Shown: in pieces, positions 864 through 21,367 of the stretch
How positions within the stretch are numbered: the first letter of the stretch is position 1
Layout of the letters: each line of letters starts with the position of its first letter
From: Jaapia argillacea MUCL 33604
Lineage: Eukaryota; Basidiomycota; Agaricomycetes; Jaapiales; Jaapiaceae
Length of the DNA stretch: 21,367 nucleotides
Direction: 5' to 3'
Assembly (NCBI GenBank): GCA_000697665.1
Contig: KL197736.1
Location: 1 to 21,367 of the forward strand
Position numbers and translations under genes: made by a program
Notes under the pieces: model-generated
Told to the model about the DNA's origin: nothing
Seen by the model: the letters and a program-made list of their open reading frames with translations, nothing else
Databases searched by the model: none

Positions 864-873
864 TGTATTTACC
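864..873. repeat. Left target-site duplication
   Basis: TGTATTTACC lies directly outside the left inverted repeat. It recurs as CGTATTTACC directly outside the right repeat, with 9 of 10 bases identical. Counting 10 bp makes both inverted repeats start with AGAA. Counting 9 bp gives a perfect duplication but leaves one extra base on the right end. Confidence 0.8.
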
Positions 874-910
874 AGAATATCATATCTGCGGGGGGATAGG
901 GCTATAGCCC
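874..910 (+). repeat. Left terminal inverted repeat of KDZ element
   Basis: This 37-bp end starts AGAATATC, contains a run of six G, and ends in the self-complementary 12-mer GGGCTATAGCCC (899-910). It matches the reverse complement of 6714-6750 at 30 of 37 positions without gaps. Six of the seven differences are transitions. A weaker match (GGCT) continues just inward if one gap is allowed. Confidence 0.85.
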
Positions 911-952
911 ACGGCTATGTCCAGTGGTCCATCGTCCCGCGCGGCCAAGTTC

Positions 953-981
953 GATTAGATAGTGATTAGATTTGATTAGAT
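953..981 (+). repeat. Three phased GATTAGAT subterminal repeats
   Basis: GATTAGAT occurs at 953-960, 964-971 and 974-981, with starts 11 and 10 bp apart, about one helical turn. Related GATNAGAT motifs occur near the right end at 6673-6680 and 6685-6692. Subterminal repeats are common transposase-binding sites in DNA transposons, so that role is a reasonable inference. One GATAAGAT also lies outside the element at 781-788, which weakens it. Confidence 0.45.
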
Positions 982-1210
982 TCGGACGTTGATCGAAAAT
1001 TTCCAATCAAAGCATCTCCAAAAGCCACACTCTCACAATGCGTTTGCCAAAGTCACGTATGTCGCGTTGTCCCTCCTCCAGCGCCCGTTGCTCTCGACAC
1101 CCAAAGCCCGCCAATGCAGTCGAGTATTGCTTGTTTCTGTCTCACTTTGACCTCCTTGTCGTCGTATATATCGTCAATGGCAATCCGTATGTTCCTCCCA
1201 ACCTGCTGTG

Positions 1211-4084
1211 ATGGACCCGAACCCGAACCTCGACCCTCGACTCCACGAGAATGAAACCTATCCACCTGACCCGCAGCTCAATTTTAAGCTGAGGTGTCGG
1301 AAGGAACATTGTAACCAACCCATGGGAGGCTTCCGTGTGTATCTCGGAAAGAGCAACCCCGGTCGAGCTCATCTCAGGGGAGCCATTGTTCAAACGGTGC
1401 GTCTCAACATCACCCCTATATTTTTGTGTATTGTCTCATCATCTGTTTTTTCAGTGCACAAGTTGTTATTACACCCTTTTCCACACGGACTCCTACATTT
1501 TCAGTGATGCTGAAGCCTTCGTGAGAAGGTTGAATCTTCGTCAAACGGGCATCCCCTGTCTCTCGGGGCCTCTTCGACTAGCTCCCCCAGGGCCTCCCCC
1601 TCCTGATAGAGCTACAACAAAGGTCTACTGTTCCAAATTGGACTGTTTCGTCAAAGGACCTGGGGGGCAGCGGACCACGGCGAATGTGAAGTGTATCGAG
1701 AAGAAATGCAAGAAGTGTTGCGAAGCAGCTCATTTGCTTGCGCAGGAGATGGGTCGAGCGGCTTGTAAGACTCACAAGCTACTCGAAATTCAACCTCGCA
1801 TAGCCCCCTCTTCCCCCCACCATCGGGAATCGCCGCAGCCTTCCCTCGAAACTTCCCACCGAGTCACGACTACCTCATCTCCTCTTTCTGCACAACCTCC
1901 CCCCTCGCCTCTTTTTCCTTCAGATTTCCAAGGTCGTAGTGGCCCACCGCAACCACACATTCCAAATCTCGCGGTTTCTCACTCAAGTCGGGGCCCAGCT
2001 ACTCCCCGTGCGTCTCAGCCTACACCAAGCTCTTCCCAGAGGCCCCCTCGAAGGAATGCCCTCGCCCAACCCCTTGACCCAATGTGGAGCCAAGTACATC
2101 ACCAAGCACGTCAGGAGAGAGATGCGAAGGAGTCCTTAAAGAGAAGGAGAGAAGACATTGATGCGGAGAAGAAGCGGACTGTCGAGATTCACTTCTATCA
2201 TACGGTGCGGTACACCTTCTTTCTGCTAACTATTCTCAGACTATGCTAATGCTACGGCTACGTGATGCAGAATGGCTGTCCTCCTGTCTCCTTCACATAC
2301 CCACTTCCAACCTACCCCGACCTCATTCTCTCGCGTATCCCACACGTTATGAATGACTTCAAGCTATCCGATATCTCGCTCGTTGATGTCTACATTGACA
2401 CTTGGAAAACCATCACCATCACAACAAGCTTCCCTGTCGATTGTTCACGCCCCGTTTTCGTCCGACTACGACCCAGCCTACTAGAAGAGCTTAAAGACTG
2501 CCCTGGACTTGCGGAGAGGGTAGCTGGATTGCCAAAGAGGAATACGCTGAACAAGAGAGCGCTGGACACAGTTGTATCGCCCCCGAAGAAAGTCGCTCGC
2601 AGGGACAATTCGACACCCATCCGCCCAAAGGTCAAATTAGAAGACATCATCTACATTGACACAACACCTCCTCCATCACATCCACCCTCTCTCCCCTCCA
2701 ACAACCCTTCTGTCACCATCGTTCCGCATCCACGATCCATTCCCCCAAGCCAACCTCAGGGTCTCGCGACTTCGAAGCAACGGCGATTTCCGAGCGAATA
2801 CTTCGTCAAGGAGATTTTTCGAGGTCTGTCAAAGCTTGAGGAACTCCGTGCTCCTGATGAAGGAGCCAATCAAATGACACTTGAGAAGGCTTGGCAACTC
2901 GCATTCCCGACTGTCGGCTATGTCCAATCTACAGCCAAGGCTCTCCGCGCCACCTGGAAGAAGGCTTCGCCTGAGCTCATCAATCGGTTTTGTCGATATG
3001 GCCATTCTCCCAAAGGCCTTTATCAGATCTTCAAGGGTGTTGTGTCGGGAACTGTTGCCAGCAACGATACGGATGACGAGATGGACTCATGGCTTGCTGA
3101 GCGCGGCCTTTCTCCGTTATCGAATGTTCTTCCCATGCCCGAGGAAGCACGGGCAACCGCTCGTTCAATCAAGGCCTTCGTTGTCGATGAACGCCAATCA
3201 CCAGTTGATCAGTCGATGAGGTGTGAATACTGCGATTACAAATGGCCACCTGGATACGTCCTTTCGGAGGAAATGGATCTCATCAGAGGAAAGCTTGTGT
3301 TGAAGACCAAGCTCAATTGCCGCGACACCTTCGAGTATTGCGCACAGCACAAGTATGAATGTGAACTCCTCCCACAAGCTCGTCAATTAGGGTGGCCCGA
3401 ATCAGTTGACTTCTCCAATCTCGATGTCTGGATCCTCGCCAAGCGCGGTGTCCTCGAAGTGACTCTCAAAAACATCACCACCAACGAGTTCTTCATGGAA
3501 TCAACATGGAGAGCCGACAGGGATGGCAAGTCAGGCGAAGATGAAAGTCGGAAGGGGCCAGAGGAGTCTAGTCAAGAGGATTCAGAGAGCGAGAAGGATG
3601 GTGATGATGTGAGAGTGTCGGCTCGCGGCCCAAAGGACTTCTACGCGGTTTCGAAGCGAAGTGCCGGATAGTAAGTTATCTGTTGTCTCCCGCTTAACTG
3701 CCCTTCTAATCTCGAACTTTGTCTAGTTATGGTGCCGAGGGCTTCATGATGATCCGATACATGTTTCCTGACCACTCCTTCGATCTTCAAGCCACTCGCC
3801 CCCTTTCTTGGGATCGGGTCATTTGTGAGGTATTTCTCCCCGAAGTAACTGTTCGTCTCATTCAGGAAGACTTGGGGATCGATTGTTCACTTGCCATCTG
3901 GACTCAGGAGGAGAGTGCTGCGTATGGTCTTCACCATTTCTCCGCCGAAGAAAGTGAAAGTATTACGAGAACTCAGAAATGGATCATTGCAAGTACGCAG
4001 ACTGAAGAGGATGAACTTCAGTTCCGTCAAGTTCATGTTGGTAACCACGTCTATTACTGCGAGGATGGACTCCTGGATTCGTAA
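1211..4084 (+). CDS. RTC4-like domain protein carried inside the transposon
   Basis: Model: exons 1211-1396, 1455-2204, 2271-3670 and 3727-4084, giving 897 aa. Introns are 58, 66 and 56 nt, with GT donors and AG acceptors in every case. The C-terminal part (about residues 628-870) resembles the RTC4-like domain. A C-x2-C pair (C630, C633) is followed by C669-x2-H672, then LLPQARQLGWP, a GYYG turn across the last intron and the EVFLPEVTVRLIQED segment. The N-terminus adds two cysteine clusters. The first (C29, H33, C34, an NPGR motif, C63, C66) resembles a GRF-type zinc finger. The second (residues 121-169) reads C-x4-C, C-x4-C-x2-CC, C-x2-H. Between them and the RTC4 domain lie low-complexity Pro/Ser linkers and a basic segment; an acidic stretch sits near 720-760. 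The family is named after yeast Rtc4 (restriction of telomere capping), whose molecular function is poorly defined. Its position inside the inverted repeats suggests a DNA-binding accessory protein of the element. The start is the first in-frame ATG; no upstream exon is evident. Confidence 0.82.
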
Positions 4085-4133
4085 ACGGAAGTTGTAACAT
4101 AGGATAGAAACTTATACAATATACGACAAGTGA
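4085..4133. other. 49-bp gap between convergent stop codons
   Basis: Only 49 bp separate the stop of the plus-strand RTC4-like gene from the stop of the minus-strand transposase gene. The gap is AT-rich (TATACAATATACG). Both 3' untranslated regions must overlap or extend into the opposite gene. No other feature is visible. Confidence 0.8.
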
Positions 4134-6424
4134 TTAGACACTGTCAGGCTGAAGTAGAACATGGCGAGGTACATTATATGGGCTCTCGCCCTTTTGATCC
4201 AGCTCTCTCACCAACATACGGTTTCGCCGCTTGATCATTTCGTCCAAGAAAAAGTTGTAACGGTCAACTTGCATCTCCCTGACAATGGCGAGAAATCCTC
4301 CAAACCAGGCATTCGCTTGCTCCGCAGCAGATGAATTGAAACGCCACTTGCCCTCTGGTGTTCGCAGCTCCTCCCAGTCGTAAGGATTGCAGTTTTGGGC
4401 GCAATGGGTATCGGACTCCTTGTGTTTGCACTTAAAGTGAAAAACGTCAACCGGTAAAGCACAACCGTCGAAGTAGTGTCGAAGAACGGGATCGGTATCA
4501 GCCTTGAGCATCGCCGTGAGGTTGCAATTACTATCATGCCAGAGAATACGAGGGAGGGAGGCCTTGGTCGGGAACAGCCTCATCCAGAATGTCTGCAATT
4601 CGTCAGTCGTCGTCCCAAGGCGTCAACGAAATACAACTCACCCTAACCCCGTTGGGAGCCTCGGAACCAAAAAATGTCGCCCGCCCTAGAACAACACCAC
4701 ACGATGCAACACAAAGCTCCTCGTTATGAGTTCGGCGGCGTCCAAACCGAGCTCTCAACTTCGCATTCCCGGATTCCGGCTTCCCTTCGCAAACACCACT
4801 TTCGTCGATGAGCACCTCCTGATCATCCAAACCAAGGCCTTCTGCTCCAACCTCAACATCCTCGCCCTCAGCAGACCCCGGAACAGCCAAGGAGTCGTGC
4901 GTCTGTGAAGAACGTGCACGTTCAAGGCGCCGTTTAAGTTGGAACATTGCTTTGCCTTGCTGAAAATGATAGTCTTCAAGTTTGCGGTGGTCAGCATTGC
5001 TGCAAGTGCGAAAACCGACTTCGACCTCGGCGACACACGACGTAACAACACAGATGGTATTGTGCGAGCGATGAACAGGGCAAAAGTGGTCCTTGACCGA
5101 CGCGAGAGGAACGGCACAATCGTGAACACCGCAACAAGGGTGACCGATAGTAATACCGTCTGCTACAGTGGAGCGAAGATAACCTATAGTAGAATTCAAC
5201 AATTGATACAAAACTGGGTGTTATACTAAATGTTCTACTCACATACAACACCGTCATCGTTGGTGAAGAACCACGTGCATTTGTCGCATACGTGGTTCCA
5301 ATTCTCCTGGCCAGGGCCCACCATCCGTATGTTCCTCTCCTGCAAAGCTGGTCGAAGTCGGAGGCCTTGCGTCGGAGCATCATGCTGAAGCTCAAGAGTA
5401 GTACCTCGCTCCTCACAATCCAAGAAAAGGCTATGAAAAAAGAAACCATTCCACACATCATCGATCTTCATAAGGAGAGATCGATTCCAAGAGGATGGTA
5501 AGGAGTCGGATATGGAATTCCTGCCGAGGCTGTAGTTGTATAACCGAGAACAGTTCGTCGCAGAGGTCCTGAGGCATGGTAAACCTTGTGATCATGGCAA
5601 ACGGAAGAGAACTTACCAGGAAGTGACCATCATGTTCGCAAATAGCTCACAGGTATCGCGAGACATGTAGACATGATCGGATGTCTCAATTAGGGTTGGT
5701 GGCTCTTGGTAGTATGTTCGAAGTGTCGCTTTGTTGTGGACATAGTAGTTTGGATGGTAACGAGTATAGCATTCTACCAGAAAGTCAACTCCCGGAGTCA
5801 AGTAGTAACGAAATTCAGATGCTTACTGCGACAATAGAGTGATGTTGTGAAACCCGGTACAGCTCCAAGCTTGACCGTGAAGACCGTGATCTCGTATTGG
5901 GATGGTTCCTTCAGCTCCCGTTCTGAAAGATAAACAACATCTTGGTATTCAAGAACATGGCGGCAAGCGGGATCGAGGCAAGTTTCGGTTGGAGGGTACA
6001 AGTTGAAGAAGCCTGGTTGTGAGACAATCATCAGTAAAGGACAAACTAGGTTGGAGAGCGACGAGAATGACTGACCTATTCCCCGGTCGAGACCATAATC
6101 TACAATTGACTCCATGTACGAGCTTGCTCTCGAGAGTACATCTGGGTCTAACGGGTGAAAGTTCCGCTCCCAGACCACATCACGAAAGGTCTCCCAAGCC
6201 AGCTTGGAAGTTTCGTGATCAAGACCGAGAGACAGAGCGAGAAACTCGTGGACGAGGTGGGGAAGTCGTTCTGGAGGACCATTTTTGTACCAAGGTTGTA
6301 TCCGTTTGATGTTTGGACGAGCGAGTCGGGCGAGGTCGACATACTTCACAACGGTATCGAAGGTGAGGCTTGCGTGAAGTTCAGGGGTAGTAGCGAGGAG
6401 CTGGCTGAGGTGAATAAAGAACAT
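4134..6424 (-). CDS. KDZ transposase-type protein with CxC5 and CxC6 clusters
   Basis: Model on the minus strand: exons 6424-6076, 6012-5827, 5773-5617, 5568-5243, 5183-4642 and 4592-4134, giving 672 aa. Introns are 63, 53, 48, 59 and 49 nt, all GT-AG. Every phase closes and no stop remains. An N-terminal helical region (1-115) is followed by a CxC5-type cluster (NLYPP motif, C128, C133, C177-x2-C180, then Y-rich sequence). A segment with RLRPALQERN and GQENWNHVCDKC (C325, C328) follows, then a CxC6-type cluster (C340, GHPCC at 354-357, C362, C374, C384, C389, C400, H405). The C-terminus (521-672) carries WHDSNC (D540), H572-x4-H577 and SSAAEQANAW (E611), matching the ends of KDZ RNase H-fold transposases. 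No clear first catalytic Asp was found. The likely role is transposition of this element. The ATG at 6424 is the first after an in-frame stop, but an extra 5' exon cannot be excluded. Confidence 0.88.
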
Positions 6425-6713
6425 TGAGGAGGGGATAGTACTGGGTCGTCAGAGGCTGAATCGGAGACCATGACGAGGCATTTGAGCACAGCGGAGACGG
6501 CCCAAGGGTGACAATAAGACGGGGAGGAAGCTCAAATACAGTCTCAGGGCTGGCAGTTCTTTTGTCGGTGGTGAGACAGTGTCTACGAGATGACAACAAA
6601 TGAACAAGAGTGGCGGGCCATAGCACGGTTGACGCGTTGGGGTTGAGGACGCGTCGTGGTCAACAAGCCACTGATAAGATTGCTGATCAGATTACAGATA
6701 GGCTACAGCCACA
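6425..6713. other. Right subterminal region, presumed transposase promoter
   Basis: This non-coding stretch lies between the transposase start and the right inverted repeat and must hold the 5' region of the minus-strand gene. It contains GTTGAC (6628-6633) facing GTCAAC (6659-6664) around two ACGCGT sites, then GATAAGAT (6673-6680) and GATCAGAT (6685-6692), which resemble the left subterminal repeats. A minus-strand open frame at 6381-6626 overlaps the transposase start but shows no matching domain. Confidence 0.5.
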
Positions 6714-6750
6714 GGGCTATAGCCCTGTCTCCCCGTGGATGAGATGTTCT
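6714..6750 (-). repeat. Right terminal inverted repeat of KDZ element
   Basis: The reverse complement starts AGAACATC and ends GGGCTATAGCCC (6714-6725), matching the left end at 30 of 37 positions. Here the central palindrome is longer: ACAGGGCTATAGCCCTGT (6711-6728) is perfectly self-complementary over 18 bp. Confidence 0.85.
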
Positions 6751-6760
6751 CGTATTTACC
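6751..6760. repeat. Right target-site duplication
   Basis: CGTATTTACC sits directly outside the right inverted repeat and pairs with TGTATTTACC at 864-873. Bases 2-10 are identical. Confidence 0.8.
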
Positions 6761-6852
6761 GAGCCTCCGAATATGGGTTGGAATGTTTTGTTTATTCCTG
6801 AAATTTTGACAAGACATACAAGCCAAGTTATAGCTTGGAGTCCAAAGGACAC

Positions 6853-7088: not shown

Positions 7089-8050
7089 ATGCACTCCCAC
7101 TTTTTCGCCGTCATGCTGTCGTTCGCGACAACGGCGTTGTCGTTTGTTATCGGCGGCGTCGTTCTCACAAACGATACCCACACCCTATCCTCTCGGACCC
7201 TCTCTTGATCCGGACTGGGTGGTTAACGACACCGTGACCTTCGCCCTCATGGCCTCGTGGCCCAGAGGCTTCGGAGAGGTCCTCGGTAACGACGCCCCCA
7301 CCTCGCTCTCCCGTGACGGCTACTATGGTACCTACAGGTCACCCTCCCAATACGACGATGACACCTTCGGTTCGTTGTGGCCTGGCCCCAGGACAGGTGC
7401 TCGGTAACGGCGCCCGCACCTCGCTCTCCCTCGACGACTACGACGGCACCCGCAGGTTACCCTCCTGAGGCGACAACGACGACTCCTTTGGCTGCAGCTT
7501 GTCCTGGCCTGGATGCTCCGGACAGGTGCTCGGTAACGACGCTTGCGCTGTACCCTCTCGCAACGGCTACACTCACCCCTCCACCCTCGACAACGACAAT
7601 CTCCCCTCCCTCGACGACTACGGCCGGGCCGGTGCCACTCTCCGACCAACCTATCCCACCACAGATAGTATAAACACATCCATCCCCTCCACGAACCAGT
7701 CAGTCACCCCTACGCAACACCCACCACCCCCAAACATATCGACCACATCGAAGAACTCGTGCACGACTGCCGCCTGCTCGAGACGGGTCCCAGCTGGATA
7801 CAGCAACGGCATGTGCAAGCCGTGCTGCGAGATGGCTTCATCGTCCCGCACGTTCGCCAACCATCACTGCAAGATTGGCTCTACGCCGAACTCGGCGGTG
7901 CTTATTTCAACGAGTACCAACCCAATGGATTTTGCGCGTCCTGCGCCTGTTCACCCCCTCGCCCATACTCCTTCCCAAATGCGAGAGCCCAGTAGGGAGG
8001 AGTGGTGGATTTCTGTGAGGGGGAGTTTGGGACGGCGCTTGGAGTCGTGA
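7089..8050 (+). pseudogene. Decayed repeat-rich coding relic with Cys cluster
   Basis: No single intact gene is supported. A short frame from 7089 begins with a signal-peptide-like hydrophobic stretch (MHSHFFAVMLSFATTALSF) and stops near 7207. From 7273 a roughly 40-residue peptide repeat can be followed. Copies start GEVLGND (7273), GQVLGNG (7391) and GQVLGND (7520), and share a TSLS motif and a D-rich block. Copy 1 is in another frame from copies 2 and 3, and copy 2 has a TGA at 7466-7468. From 7469 the same frame stays open to 8050 and contains C-x4-C, C-x2-CC and a final HHC within 7760-7870, followed by a P/S-rich tail. A second frame across the repeats is Pro/Thr-rich and also open, so the original frame is uncertain. 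A spliced, still active gene cannot be ruled out. Confidence 0.4.
7273..7640 (+). repeat. Degenerate tandem repeat, units of about 118-129 bp
   Basis: Three imperfect copies begin at 7273, 7391 and 7520. Each starts with a variant of GTCCTCGGTAACGACGCC and continues with CTCGCTCTCCC and GACGACTACG-like blocks. A partial earlier copy begins at 7221 with GGTTAACGACACC. The third copy is the most diverged. Confidence 0.65.
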
Positions 8051-17573: not shown

Positions 17574-20500
17574 ATGGCGTCGACCGCACCCTCTTCCGGA
17601 GGCCAAATGGATGTGCTCAGCCAGATATTCCAGGGCCTCAAATCCAAAGTTCCCGAGGTCCGATCACAATCGGCCCAAGAATTACGAAGATATGTGAGTG
17701 CAAGGACTGGCATATAGGAGTTCTCGTTTGCTGACTTTATGACGATAGGTGTCGACCAGCGTATCGGAATTGTCTTCAGAGGCAGCAGGGAAGCTGTGGG
17801 AGGATACCATCAATCGCAGACTATTCGATCTTGTCCACAGCCCAAACAGTTGGGAGAAACTTGGGGGGATCGCGGCCATAGGCGCGTGCGGATGTCATTT
17901 TGGTATTCTTGTGATTCTGACTGGTGTCAAACGCAGACCACCTTTTGGATGTGGATCCAGAGGAGACAATCGAGTCCAAGATGAATCTATTCCGATTCTA
18001 CAACTACGTGAAACCATTATTACCGAACAACGATATCAACGTCATGCTCGCAGCTTCCAAAACCTTGGGGCAGATTGCAGAAATTGGAGGTGCTACGTTT
18101 GGAGAGCGGTTCATGGAGAAAGAGGTTCAAACCGCGATCGAGTTGCTCCAAGGAGATCGACAAGAGCCAGGACGTTACGCGGGAGTCTTGATTCTGAAGG
18201 AACTTGCGCGGAACAGTCCAACCTACTTTCACTCGCACATTGGCCTCGTCTTTGACAAGATCCTAGTACCCCTGAGAGACTCTCGCGTGATCGTCAGAGA
18301 AGGTGCTGCCGAATTACTGGCCGCTTGTCTAGAGATCATCACCCAGAGGGAGCGGGGTTTTAGTCTGTATCTGCCCAGGATATTCCAGGATGCACAGCTT
18401 GGTCTGAAAATGACGCAGCCGGAGATTATTCATGGATCGCTTTTGACTTACCGTGAATTATTACTCCACGGAGGCAGCGTTCGTCCTTTCTCCAATGTTT
18501 TAGCATTATGAAGGTCTCTTTCTCATCCATCTTTTAGTTCATGAAGGAGGCGTTTCTGGATACGGCCGACCAGATCCTAAAGTTCCGCACCCATCGTGAC
18601 GCCCTCGTGAAAAAGATGGACATCACTTTAATTCCAACGTTAGCAGTATATGATACACAGACGTTCTCCGAGCACTTCCTACACAAGGCCATGGCCCACC
18701 TGCTCACGCAGTTGGATAGGCCCAGCGAGCGCTCTTTTGGTACGGACGATATCACATTTCGTGTCGTTTTCTACTGATGTTCCGTGTAGCTTTCATCGCC
18801 ATCGGTCATGTAGCCAGCGCTGTCGGAAGTGAGATGAAACCCTTTGTGGATGCAATCATGGGTCAGGTAAAAGGAGGTCTTCAGAGTCGAGGGTAAGTCA
18901 AATCACTGGCTGACACTCTCCTCACACCACATAATTCCTTCCAGGAAAAAGAATGCTCCATCCGAAGAACCGATGTTTCAATGTGTGGGCATGCTTGCGT
19001 CTGCAGTTGGACCGAACTTGACCAAGTTACTCCATGATCAACTTGACTTGATGTTTGCATGTGGTCTCAGCGAGCCTTTACGACAAGCCTTGGTCGCGAT
19101 TGCACGTCACATTCCTCCTCTTTTGAAGACCATTCAGGGTTGGTCGATATCGCATGTTAACGCCCCTCTCACTCAACTACCTCCATAGATCGTTTACTCG
19201 ACCTCTTATCAATCACTCTCAGCGGCCAACCTTACAAACCTCTCGGTGCCCCAACTTCTCTTGTTCGTCCTGATATCGCGGCAATTGCCAAAGATATCAA
19301 TGCTACCCAGGTTCGATGGGTCCGTCTCCTTTATGGATCATGATTGACAGTTATCTTTAGACAACGGGAGGTGGTAAGACTCCTGAACAGATCACACTTG
19401 CTCTTACGACTCTGGGCTCCTTTGATTTCAGTGGTAAGTTGATTGCGATATGGTTTGGTCACCTATAACCATTTCTCCATATAGGTCACGTTTTGAACGA
19501 GTTTGTTCGCACGTGCGCGATGCCCTATCTTGAAGATGACCATGCCGAAGTCAGACGGGCTGCTGCAACAACTTGCTGCCGTCTCTTTATCCGGGACCCT
19601 ATCTGCTATCAAGCGAGTAACCACGCCATCGAGATTATCAGCGATGTCCTCGACAAGCTCTTGACGGTCGGAATTGCAGACCCAGGTCCGTTGCATCTTC
19701 AGTCTGTTGTCCTTCGTTCGTTCAACGCAGTTGTAGACGCTTCTATCAGGCAAACCGTTCTATCATCTCTCCACGAGAGGTTCGATAAACATCTTGCGCA
19801 GGCAGAAAATGTGCGATCTCTCTTCATCGCCCTCAACGATGAGGTGTTTGAGAACCGTTTGACCGCTGTTACCTTGATCGGGCGTCTCGCGATGCACAAC
19901 CCGGCATACGTGATGCCATCCCTCCGAAAGGCCCTGATACAACTGGTGACTGAATTGGAGTACTCAACCGTCACGTAAGTTACTCTCCCCGGCCGAAGAT
20001 GCTGGCTAACTCAATCTTCGAGGCTAGTCGGAGCAGAGAAGAGTGCACTCGTCTTTTAACTACCCTAGTCAGTGCGACGCAACGACTCATCAAGCCCTAT
20101 GCAGTCCCAATGCTCCGTGTCCTGCTACAGAAGGCCGGCGACCCCAATCCGACGGTCGCTGCTCATGTCATCATGTGTCTCGGAGAGTTGACTTGTGCCG
20201 GTGGAGAAGAGGTAGTCCCACACGTTCCTGAGCTCATGGGTGTCATCATCTCCAAGTTGTCCGACCCTTCTCTAGCCAAACGGGACGCGGCTCTCCGCAC
20301 CCTTGGGCAGGTTTGCTCTAGCACAGGCTATGTGATTGCCCCCCTGATCGACTATCCCACACTTCTCAACCTGCTCGGCAAAATTCTGAAAGCCGAACCT
20401 ACTCAACACGTCCGGAGAGGAGTCATCAAAGTTTTGGGTATATTAGGCGCTTTGGATCCGTATAGGCGAAAGGTACTGTCTTATTCTAATGGATATGGTT

Positions 20501-21367
20501 CATTCTTCCTGAGCCCAGATTAGACCAAGCCAGAAGACGAAGCTGGGGATGAGAAAGCCGTCACAGCTGTCAACACTGTTCCTTTGACGCAAAGTGTTAC
20601 CTCAACAGCGTCTGATGACTACTATCAAACTGTAGTCATCAATGCCCTCCTCGGAGTTCTGAAGGATCAGTCTCTCAGTAGTCACCACCACCACGTCATC
20701 GAGGCAATTATGTCTATCTTCAAGACTCAAGGTTTGAAATGTGTCACATTTCTCCCTCAGGTTGGCGTCCGAGTTCTTGTTTTTGCACTCGTTAACCCCT
20801 GTTACAGATTATCCCAGCATTTGCCGCAGTCACTCGAACTTCCGCTCGTTTGCAGGAGTTTCATCTTCAACAACTTGCCATTCTTGTTGGTATCATCAAG
20901 CAACATGTCCGAAACTATACGCCTGAGGTTTTCGGGCTCATAACAGAACTATGGGAGAGTCTTTCTCTTCAATTACCCATCGTCTCTCTTGTGGAAGCCC
21001 TTGGTAAAGCACTGGATGCAGAGTTCAAGCCGTTCCTTCCAACGATCCTCCCTCTAATGCTCAAAGTCTTTGATGGTGAGTTGAACGACAAGCGAGCCAA
21101 CACCCAGATGAAGGTCTTCGATGCACTTCTGACATTCGGCTCCAATATTGAGGAGTACCTGCATCTTGTCATCCCTATCATCGTCAAAACGTACGAGCGG
21201 CCTGATGCGTCGACGGCATTGCGGAAAAGGGCTATCCAGACCGTCGATGGTCTGTCACGAAAAGTGAACTTCTCGGACCATGCCTCTCGTATCATCCACC
21301 CTCTCAATAGGGTTTTGGGTAATGCCAACAACGAAGTTCGAATGGCTGTTATGGAGACTCTATGCTC
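17574..21367 (+). CDS. TOR: TOR serine/threonine kinase, N-terminal HEAT region (partial)
   Basis: Model, 12 exons, running off the window: 17574-17693, 17749-17881, 17937-18478, 18538-18739, 18790-18892, 18945-19138, 19189-19310, 19361-19433, 19485-19974, 20028-20472, 20524-20760, 20808-21367. This gives about 1,073 of the roughly 2,300-2,400 residues usual for TOR. Motifs typical of TOR proteins include [113 protein letters not shown] and [20 protein letters not shown]. The product is the PIKK-family kinase at the core of TORC1/TORC2, which couples nutrients to growth. Only the alpha-solenoid scaffold is present; the FAT, FRB and kinase domains lie past 21367. Intron 2 (17882-17936) needs a GC donor to keep the conserved Asp of AIDHLL in frame. 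Introns are 47-59 nt. The start ATG has G at +4. Confidence 0.95.

Follow-up and report, generated by a model that had tools for sequence, protein, structure and literature searches.

Among fungal DNA transposons, the TET-bearing KDZ elements (Kyakuja, Dileera, and Zisupton) have a second, non-transposase gene. According to the accessible parts of Kojima 2025 (PMC12730594), which describes TET-bearing fungal transposons, Zisupton and Dileera have 8-base pair (bp) duplications and Kyakuja has 7-bp duplications without inverted repeats; RTC4, CxC5, and CxC6 are not mentioned in the main text of that paper. In the sections of PMC7641404 that were available, the CxC5/CxC6 copies of Pleurotus ostreatus number 44 in one strain and almost 60 in a second, a KDZ transposon is not reported at the distance that would be expected, and an insert of 6,792 bp in MSH4 contains an open reading frame (ORF) for a CxC5/CxC6 protein of 739 amino acids (aa), with Copia suspected. 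The main texts of two papers on Marasmius oreades (PMC9674265 and PMC8290104), as far as accessible, do not mention CxC. The RTC4 domain is poorly understood: yeast Rtc4 has a genetic link to telomere maintenance but an unclear function in the available text of PMC6162548, and the 45 RTC4 proteins of Puccinia novopanici, compared to 15 in P. sorghi, were interpreted as DNA-damage proteins in the portion of PMC9370660 at hand. The literature searched, which covered few subscription journals and no supplements and did not extend to the founding KDZ paper (Iyer et al. 2014), yielded no account of RTC4 within a transposon or with a KDZ transposase. The subject of this study is a stretch of 21,367 nucleotides from the basidiomycete Jaapia argillacea MUCL 33604 (GCA_000697665.1, contig KL197736.1, positions 1 to 21,367, forward strand), referred to as the window, in which an initial annotation described an RTC4-like gene as cargo of an intact KDZ transposon. 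The element at 873-6751 is, with a probability of about 75%, a complete two-gene DNA transposon that encodes a CxC5/CxC6 transposase and an accessory protein with an exchangeable tail.

The limits of the complete element (5,879 bp) are given by its inverted repeats and flanking duplication, and it contains two convergent genes, of which the forward-strand one encodes a protein of 897 aa with RTC4 at its end and the reverse-strand one a CxC5/CxC6 protein of 693 aa. Within the first 9 kilobases (kb) of the window, no longer inverted pair is reported than the repeat arms (853-910 and 6714-6771), and comparison with sister elements places the termini at C873 and C6751. The left terminal inverted repeat (873-910, forward strand) begins with CAGAATATC and the right one (6714-6751, reverse strand) reads GAGAACATC inward; two short relatives, L053 and L054, have the same ends and seven sister elements have ends of the same family type. 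The 8-bp sequence GTATTTAC flanks the element on both sides, at 865-872 and 6752-6759, with no strand assigned. A duplication of nine bases had been proposed initially; the length is set at 8 bp because the ninth base is mismatched in L053, where the 8 flanking bases agree, and its agreement in L054 is coincidental. The ninth C is the first base of the element itself, matched by chance. Inverted repeats together with a duplication of fixed length are found over several copies, as is characteristic of cut-and-paste DNA transposons. The sister ends and the Pfam matches confirm the earlier observation of inverted repeats and a duplication around two genes, one RTC4-like and the other, initially called a KDZ-type transposase gene, coding for the CxC5/CxC6 protein.

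For the survey of sister elements, 10-kb regions were taken at 13 CxC6 loci besides that of the window, 14 in all; two CxC5-only loci (C20 and C40:254k) were left out. Ends of the family type with a duplication are present at eight of these, and the elements have lengths of 5.3-6.4 kb. The 8-bp duplication is exact in the window, L038, L039, L040, L041, L046, and L047, while L042 has seven of eight matching bases and was found by the relaxed scan only. Such ends and duplications were not found in L043, L044, L045, L049, and L050, and stretches of N interrupt the sequences of L045, L049, and L050. A strict end match at L048 was dropped, as its ends are unrelated to the family. When left and right flanks were paired for 13 loci (L050 was omitted, its right flank reading N), strict matches occurred in 8 of 13 true pairs, L048 among them, versus 10 of 156 mismatched pairs, a control rate that is raised because the family ends are common to different loci. 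Little reliance can be placed on the gene models of the decayed copies L043, L044, L045, and L048 or on the last exons proposed by script for L042 and L046. The divergent CxC5/CxC6 gene of L049 (C10:678676-679686) has long open frames, its ends were not found, and it may be a domesticated copy or a distant one.

A second gene accompanies the CxC5/CxC6 gene at 10 of the 14 CxC6 loci and in all eight elements with intact ends, and RTC4 is present in seven of those ten and in six of the eight. The RTC4-tailed second genes of the window and L038-L043 are homologous by gene models and tblastn, with identity down to about 20% for the window. L046 and L050 have a common accessory version (49% identity over 365 aa) for which the genome scan gives no RTC4 match; a GRF zinc finger opens the L046 protein (27.3 bits, cut-off 25.9), and the exon bearing its central block ends in a stop. 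The accessory core of L047 is recognisable from tblastn (1e-4 to L038) and from iterated psiblast within a small set, and its tail (L047:4577-5077, on C4) is alpha-kinase-like at 20.5 bits, just under the cut-off of 21.3, in the place of RTC4. The central block is found in all ten accessory genes, although only partially in L043. Because the second gene is kept in all intact elements and the two without RTC4 share the central block, RTC4 is better understood as a tail that a conserved accessory protein can exchange, and less well as passenger cargo. The term cargo, as initially applied, does not suit a conserved gene of which RTC4 is the C-terminal module, and the accessory gene seems to belong to the working parts of the element. 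Accessory-like stretches are also found outside the standard arrangement by protein search, at C1:3193620-3194528 and C57:50723-50998.

The association extends over the whole assembly (43.7 Mb in 95 contigs), which was scanned with Pfam models. Such scans score the best candidates only, so the numbers of matches are lower bounds: at least 9 for RTC4, 15 for CxC6 (at 14 loci), 24 for CxC5, 71 for KDZ, and 26 for TET/JBP, merging into 16 CxC5/6, 41 KDZ, 26 TET/JBP, and 9 RTC4 loci. Seven of the nine RTC4 loci lie within 5 kb of CxC5/6, all in the same arrangement, on opposite strands and with 1,041-1,248 bp between RTC4 and CxC6. Under uniform placement the chance of this is about 8e-16, or about 1e-13 for six of eight with the window excluded, and the pairing thus recurs far beyond chance. 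None of the nine RTC4 loci lies within 5 kb of KDZ or of TET/JBP, and the same is true for all 16 CxC5/6 loci. The known association of TET/JBP with canonical KDZ transposases is evident at 19 of 26 TET/JBP loci (within 5 kb). There is neither a TET/JBP nor a KDZ match within 5 kb of the window element; the proposed absence of TET/JBP from the element holds, and RTC4 does occupy the place that TET/JBP has in canonical KDZ elements of this genome.

The remaining two RTC4 loci, C48 and C38, differ from these. The C48 gene stands alone and has the top score (57.5 bits in the genome scan, 55.9 on one ORF), and RTC4 is the sole domain above its cut-off in the C48 ORFs scanned; it is probably a cellular gene. 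A stand-alone RTC4 gene, of a kind anticipated as evidence against the pairing, does exist, but it appears to be cellular. At C38 (L052:4542-9544) an RTC4-like ORF (25.0 bits) lies 2.5 kb from a tnp2 (Transposase_21) ORF (52.9 bits), one of 13 tnp2 matches genome-wide and the one beside the C38 RTC4. An inverted repeat with 15 exact bases encloses both, yet there is no clear duplication, and the locus is possibly a second capture of RTC4 by a different type of transposon.

Elements with the same ends but without RTC4, likewise anticipated as contrary evidence, are also present, although six intact elements carry the domain. Besides L046 and L047, in which the second gene is kept and RTC4 undetected, there are two elements of about 900 bp, L053 (L053:1503-2404, on C12) and L054 (C1:807172-808073), that are 99.4% identical, have ends of the window type, and contain neither gene. 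Each has its own 8-bp duplication (AGGATTCC and CGAGGAGC, respectively), and they look like non-autonomous relatives that have moved recently. Further diverged relatives are found on C5, C2, C61, and C21 and at C1:1345k.

In the window, the accessory gene lies at 1211-4084 on the forward strand (gene model and Pfam), with exons at 1211-1396, 1455-2204, 2271-3670, and 3727-4084; the end of the third exon was set by hand from the window sequence. The N-terminus has cysteine clusters that by eye are GRF-like. The GRF fingers of NEIL3 bind single-stranded DNA, according to the available part of PMC9266487. The central block common to accessory proteins, identified by alignment, corresponds to 2784-3042 (forward strand) and to a helical domain in the predicted structure of the L041 homologue, where residues 205-298 are modelled with confidence (predicted local distance difference test, pLDDT, mostly 80-94). 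The RTC4-like region with its C-x2-C ... C-x2-H cluster is at 3216-3931 (forward strand). The Pfam match to RTC4 (PF14474) covers residues 767-847, about 3633-3931, and spans the last intron: the spliced window protein scores 28.5 bits against a cut-off of 23.7, and without splicing the score is marginally under the cut-off (23.5 for the last exon alone, 21.9 in the unspliced genome scan). Cellular RTC4 proteins, such as yeast Rtc4 and probably that of C48, have the same domain and cluster, whereas the element version is fused to the zinc clusters and central block of transposon proteins.

Between L040 and L041 the nonsynonymous divergence (dN) of the accessory ORF is 0.23 with a synonymous divergence (dS) of 2.07, and two parts of the transposase have dN of 0.05 and 0.12 with dS of about 1.5; dS is near saturation, and weight is therefore put on the contrast among segments. 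The two RTC4 parts (dN 0.20 and 0.21) are as conserved as the central domain (0.20), the N-terminal part has 0.16, and the linker (0.32), the acidic linker (0.38), and the tail (0.47) are less constrained. This contrast indicates that the RTC4 tail is retained for function, at least in the L040/L041 lineage, and the accessory gene, including its RTC4 part, looks constrained by selection. The values for L046/L050 are dN 0.33 and dS 3.11 for the accessory centre and dN 0.07 and dS 1.85 for the transposase; for L042/L043, of which L043 is decayed, they are dN 0.07 and dS 0.27 for the accessory gene and dN 0.05 and dS 0.13 for the transposase.

The CxC5/CxC6 gene lies at 4134-6424 on the reverse strand, with exons at 6424-5827, 5773-5617, 5568-5243, 5183-4642, and 4592-4134 (gene model and Pfam). 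Profile matches place the CxC5 cysteine cluster at 5529-6010 (128 bits in the window protein) and the CxC6 cluster at 4972-5166 (88 bits), both on the reverse strand, and the protein thus has the CxC clusters associated with KDZ transposons; no other Pfam domain is found in it at E up to 10. The CxC6 cluster starts at a candidate first catalytic aspartate (D), in the motif ADG. The C-terminal region (4167-4598, reverse strand) contains a candidate second D (HDSNC) and a candidate glutamate (E, in NSSAAEQ), both invariant in an alignment of nine family members. These nine C-terminal halves have 25 invariant columns in common; xDxNC contributes its D and C, VDVFH and KH are included, and the SSAAE-type motif contributes its E. 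One canonical KDZ protein from the same genome has DGN, YDINCQ, GLFHVHGH, and DGEVIETLW in matching order, and by eye the two proteins look like variants of the same plan. From these motifs the CxC5/CxC6 protein is probably a D-D-E transposase.

Several results weigh against this interpretation of the two proteins. Only 8 of 11 gene models have the candidate first D where CxC6 starts, and L045 carries N for the second D. In four CxC5/CxC6 sequences, including the full window protein, the KDZ domain (PF18758) is not matched even at E up to 10, although HMMER filters discard most weak matches; the same model yields the 41 KDZ loci of this genome. An hhalign comparison of the CxC5/CxC6 profile with two KDZ sequences gave nothing significant with these shallow profiles, the predicted AlphaFold structure of the CxC5/CxC6 core is poor (pLDDT 49), and a fold search with that model found no match. 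For the accessory protein, RTC4 is undetected in two of eight intact elements, Pfam does not recognise GRF in the protein of the window itself, and the GRF score of L050 (22.2 bits) is under the cut-off. To these are added the near saturation of dS and the derivation of all counts from a single genome.

The initial reading is a canonical KDZ transposon whose TET/JBP cargo gave way to an RTC4 gene. It would agree with the naming of CxC5 and CxC6 by Pfam for their association with KDZ transposases, with the order of the D, D, and E motifs, which by eye resembles that in a KDZ protein of this genome, and with the 8-bp duplication, which Zisupton and Dileera share in the accessible text of PMC12730594. 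However, the KDZ domain is unmatched, profile comparison is not significant, CxC5/6 loci are never within 5 kb of KDZ, and a conserved second gene is not cargo. This interpretation is unlikely as it stands, and the initial annotation is partly supported: the CxC clusters and the duplication fit its KDZ label, but the domain search and the genomic distribution do not, and the CxC5/CxC6 protein is perhaps a distant KDZ relative not filed as KDZ. In comparison to the TET-bearing elements, as far as described in PMC12730594, an RTC4-ending accessory protein here replaces TET/JBP and inverted repeats are present that Kyakuja lacks. An improbable alternative is that the CxC5/CxC6 protein is a binding partner only and that other machinery moves the elements; in P. 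ostreatus, CxC5/CxC6 copies often adjoin Copia with no KDZ transposase nearby (PMC7641404, available sections), but the Jaapia elements have inverted repeats and 8-bp duplications of their own and a conserved D-D-E-like C-terminal region, Copia itself not having been searched for in this genome.

The role of the accessory protein allows other readings. Chance capture of a host RTC4 fragment with no role in the element is disfavoured and very improbable: a stand-alone and probably cellular source does exist at C48, and L046 and L047 manage without detectable RTC4, but the same arrangement recurs at seven loci and the RTC4 segments of L040 and L041 are constrained like the central domain. Less improbably, the accessory protein may lift host silencing, as proposed for transposon-borne TET/JBP. 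The clean division of accessory genes would agree with this, TET/JBP being found with KDZ (19 of 26) and RTC4 with CxC5/6 (7 of 9) with zero crossover, and so would motifs that resemble SUMO-interaction sites, for example IIDLT with acidic residues after it or a terminal IIEIDD. These occur in four of nine accessory proteins (L038, L039, L041, and L042), where shuffles give an expectation of 0.42, as against one of nine transposases. The same motif rule finds nothing in the accessory proteins of the window, L040, L046, L047, and L050, however, and among the four accessory proteins scanned with Pfam none has a domain for base modification; this version is less likely than not. A role as helper at DNA ends or in repair, based on analogy and constraint, has about even odds.

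If the two-gene transposon is accepted as the best explanation, cut and paste is the most likely way in which the element moves. The CxC5/CxC6 protein would cut and join the DNA, with zinc clusters for binding followed by an RNase-H-like D-D-E core in which CxC6 is inserted after the first D. The accessory protein would start with N-terminal zinc clusters, which in one sister include a GRF zinc ribbon, continue with a helical domain in its centre, and end in a C-terminal module that can be exchanged; the RTC4 version of this module probably derives from a cellular RTC4 gene. The protein may bind DNA near the ends and aid the element, and its tail may deal with the way the host responds to DNA ends or chromatin, whether the DNA is broken or silenced. 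The cut-and-join half of this scheme is drawn from anatomy and conservation, and the accessory half from constraint and the analogy of its domains with GRF and Rtc4. A transposase with a separate accessory protein is also described for Harbinger and Nuwa, with Myb/SANT DNA-binding, in the available text of PMC12730594; the domains are unrelated to those described here, and Myb/SANT has no match in the four accessory proteins scanned.

CxC5/CxC6 genes are seen here inside complete elements of their own, and their spread therefore need not rely on a KDZ or Copia partner. RTC4 becomes a second recurrent accessory module in fungal DNA transposons beside TET/JBP, and fungal RTC4 gene counts may partly be counts of transposons. 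This poorly understood domain also gains a testable setting, in elements whose spread may depend on it. The CxC5/CxC6 proteins of P. ostreatus are similar in size (660 and 739 aa), have many copies, and lack a nearby KDZ transposase; the accessible part of PMC7641404 describes neither ends nor a duplication or second gene for the insert, and the comparison is by description alone. A transposon explanation may apply to that insert and to the RTC4 count of P. novopanici. One speculative extension is that CxC5/CxC6 elements form their own transposon group parallel to TET-bearing KDZ elements, with a fast-changing accessory protein that swaps tails (RTC4, kinase-like, or none) from host genes for DNA ends or chromatin, and that the 45 P. 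novopanici RTC4 proteins and the insert that left P. ostreatus without spores represent elements of this same kind.

Outside the element, the open frames at 17749-20943 of the window may encode the HEAT-repeat part of a TOR kinase, which they resemble. Immediately to the right of the element, at 7255-7597, are three diverged direct repeats of 69 nucleotides with spacing of 118 and 129, the later copies being 71-72% identical to the first.

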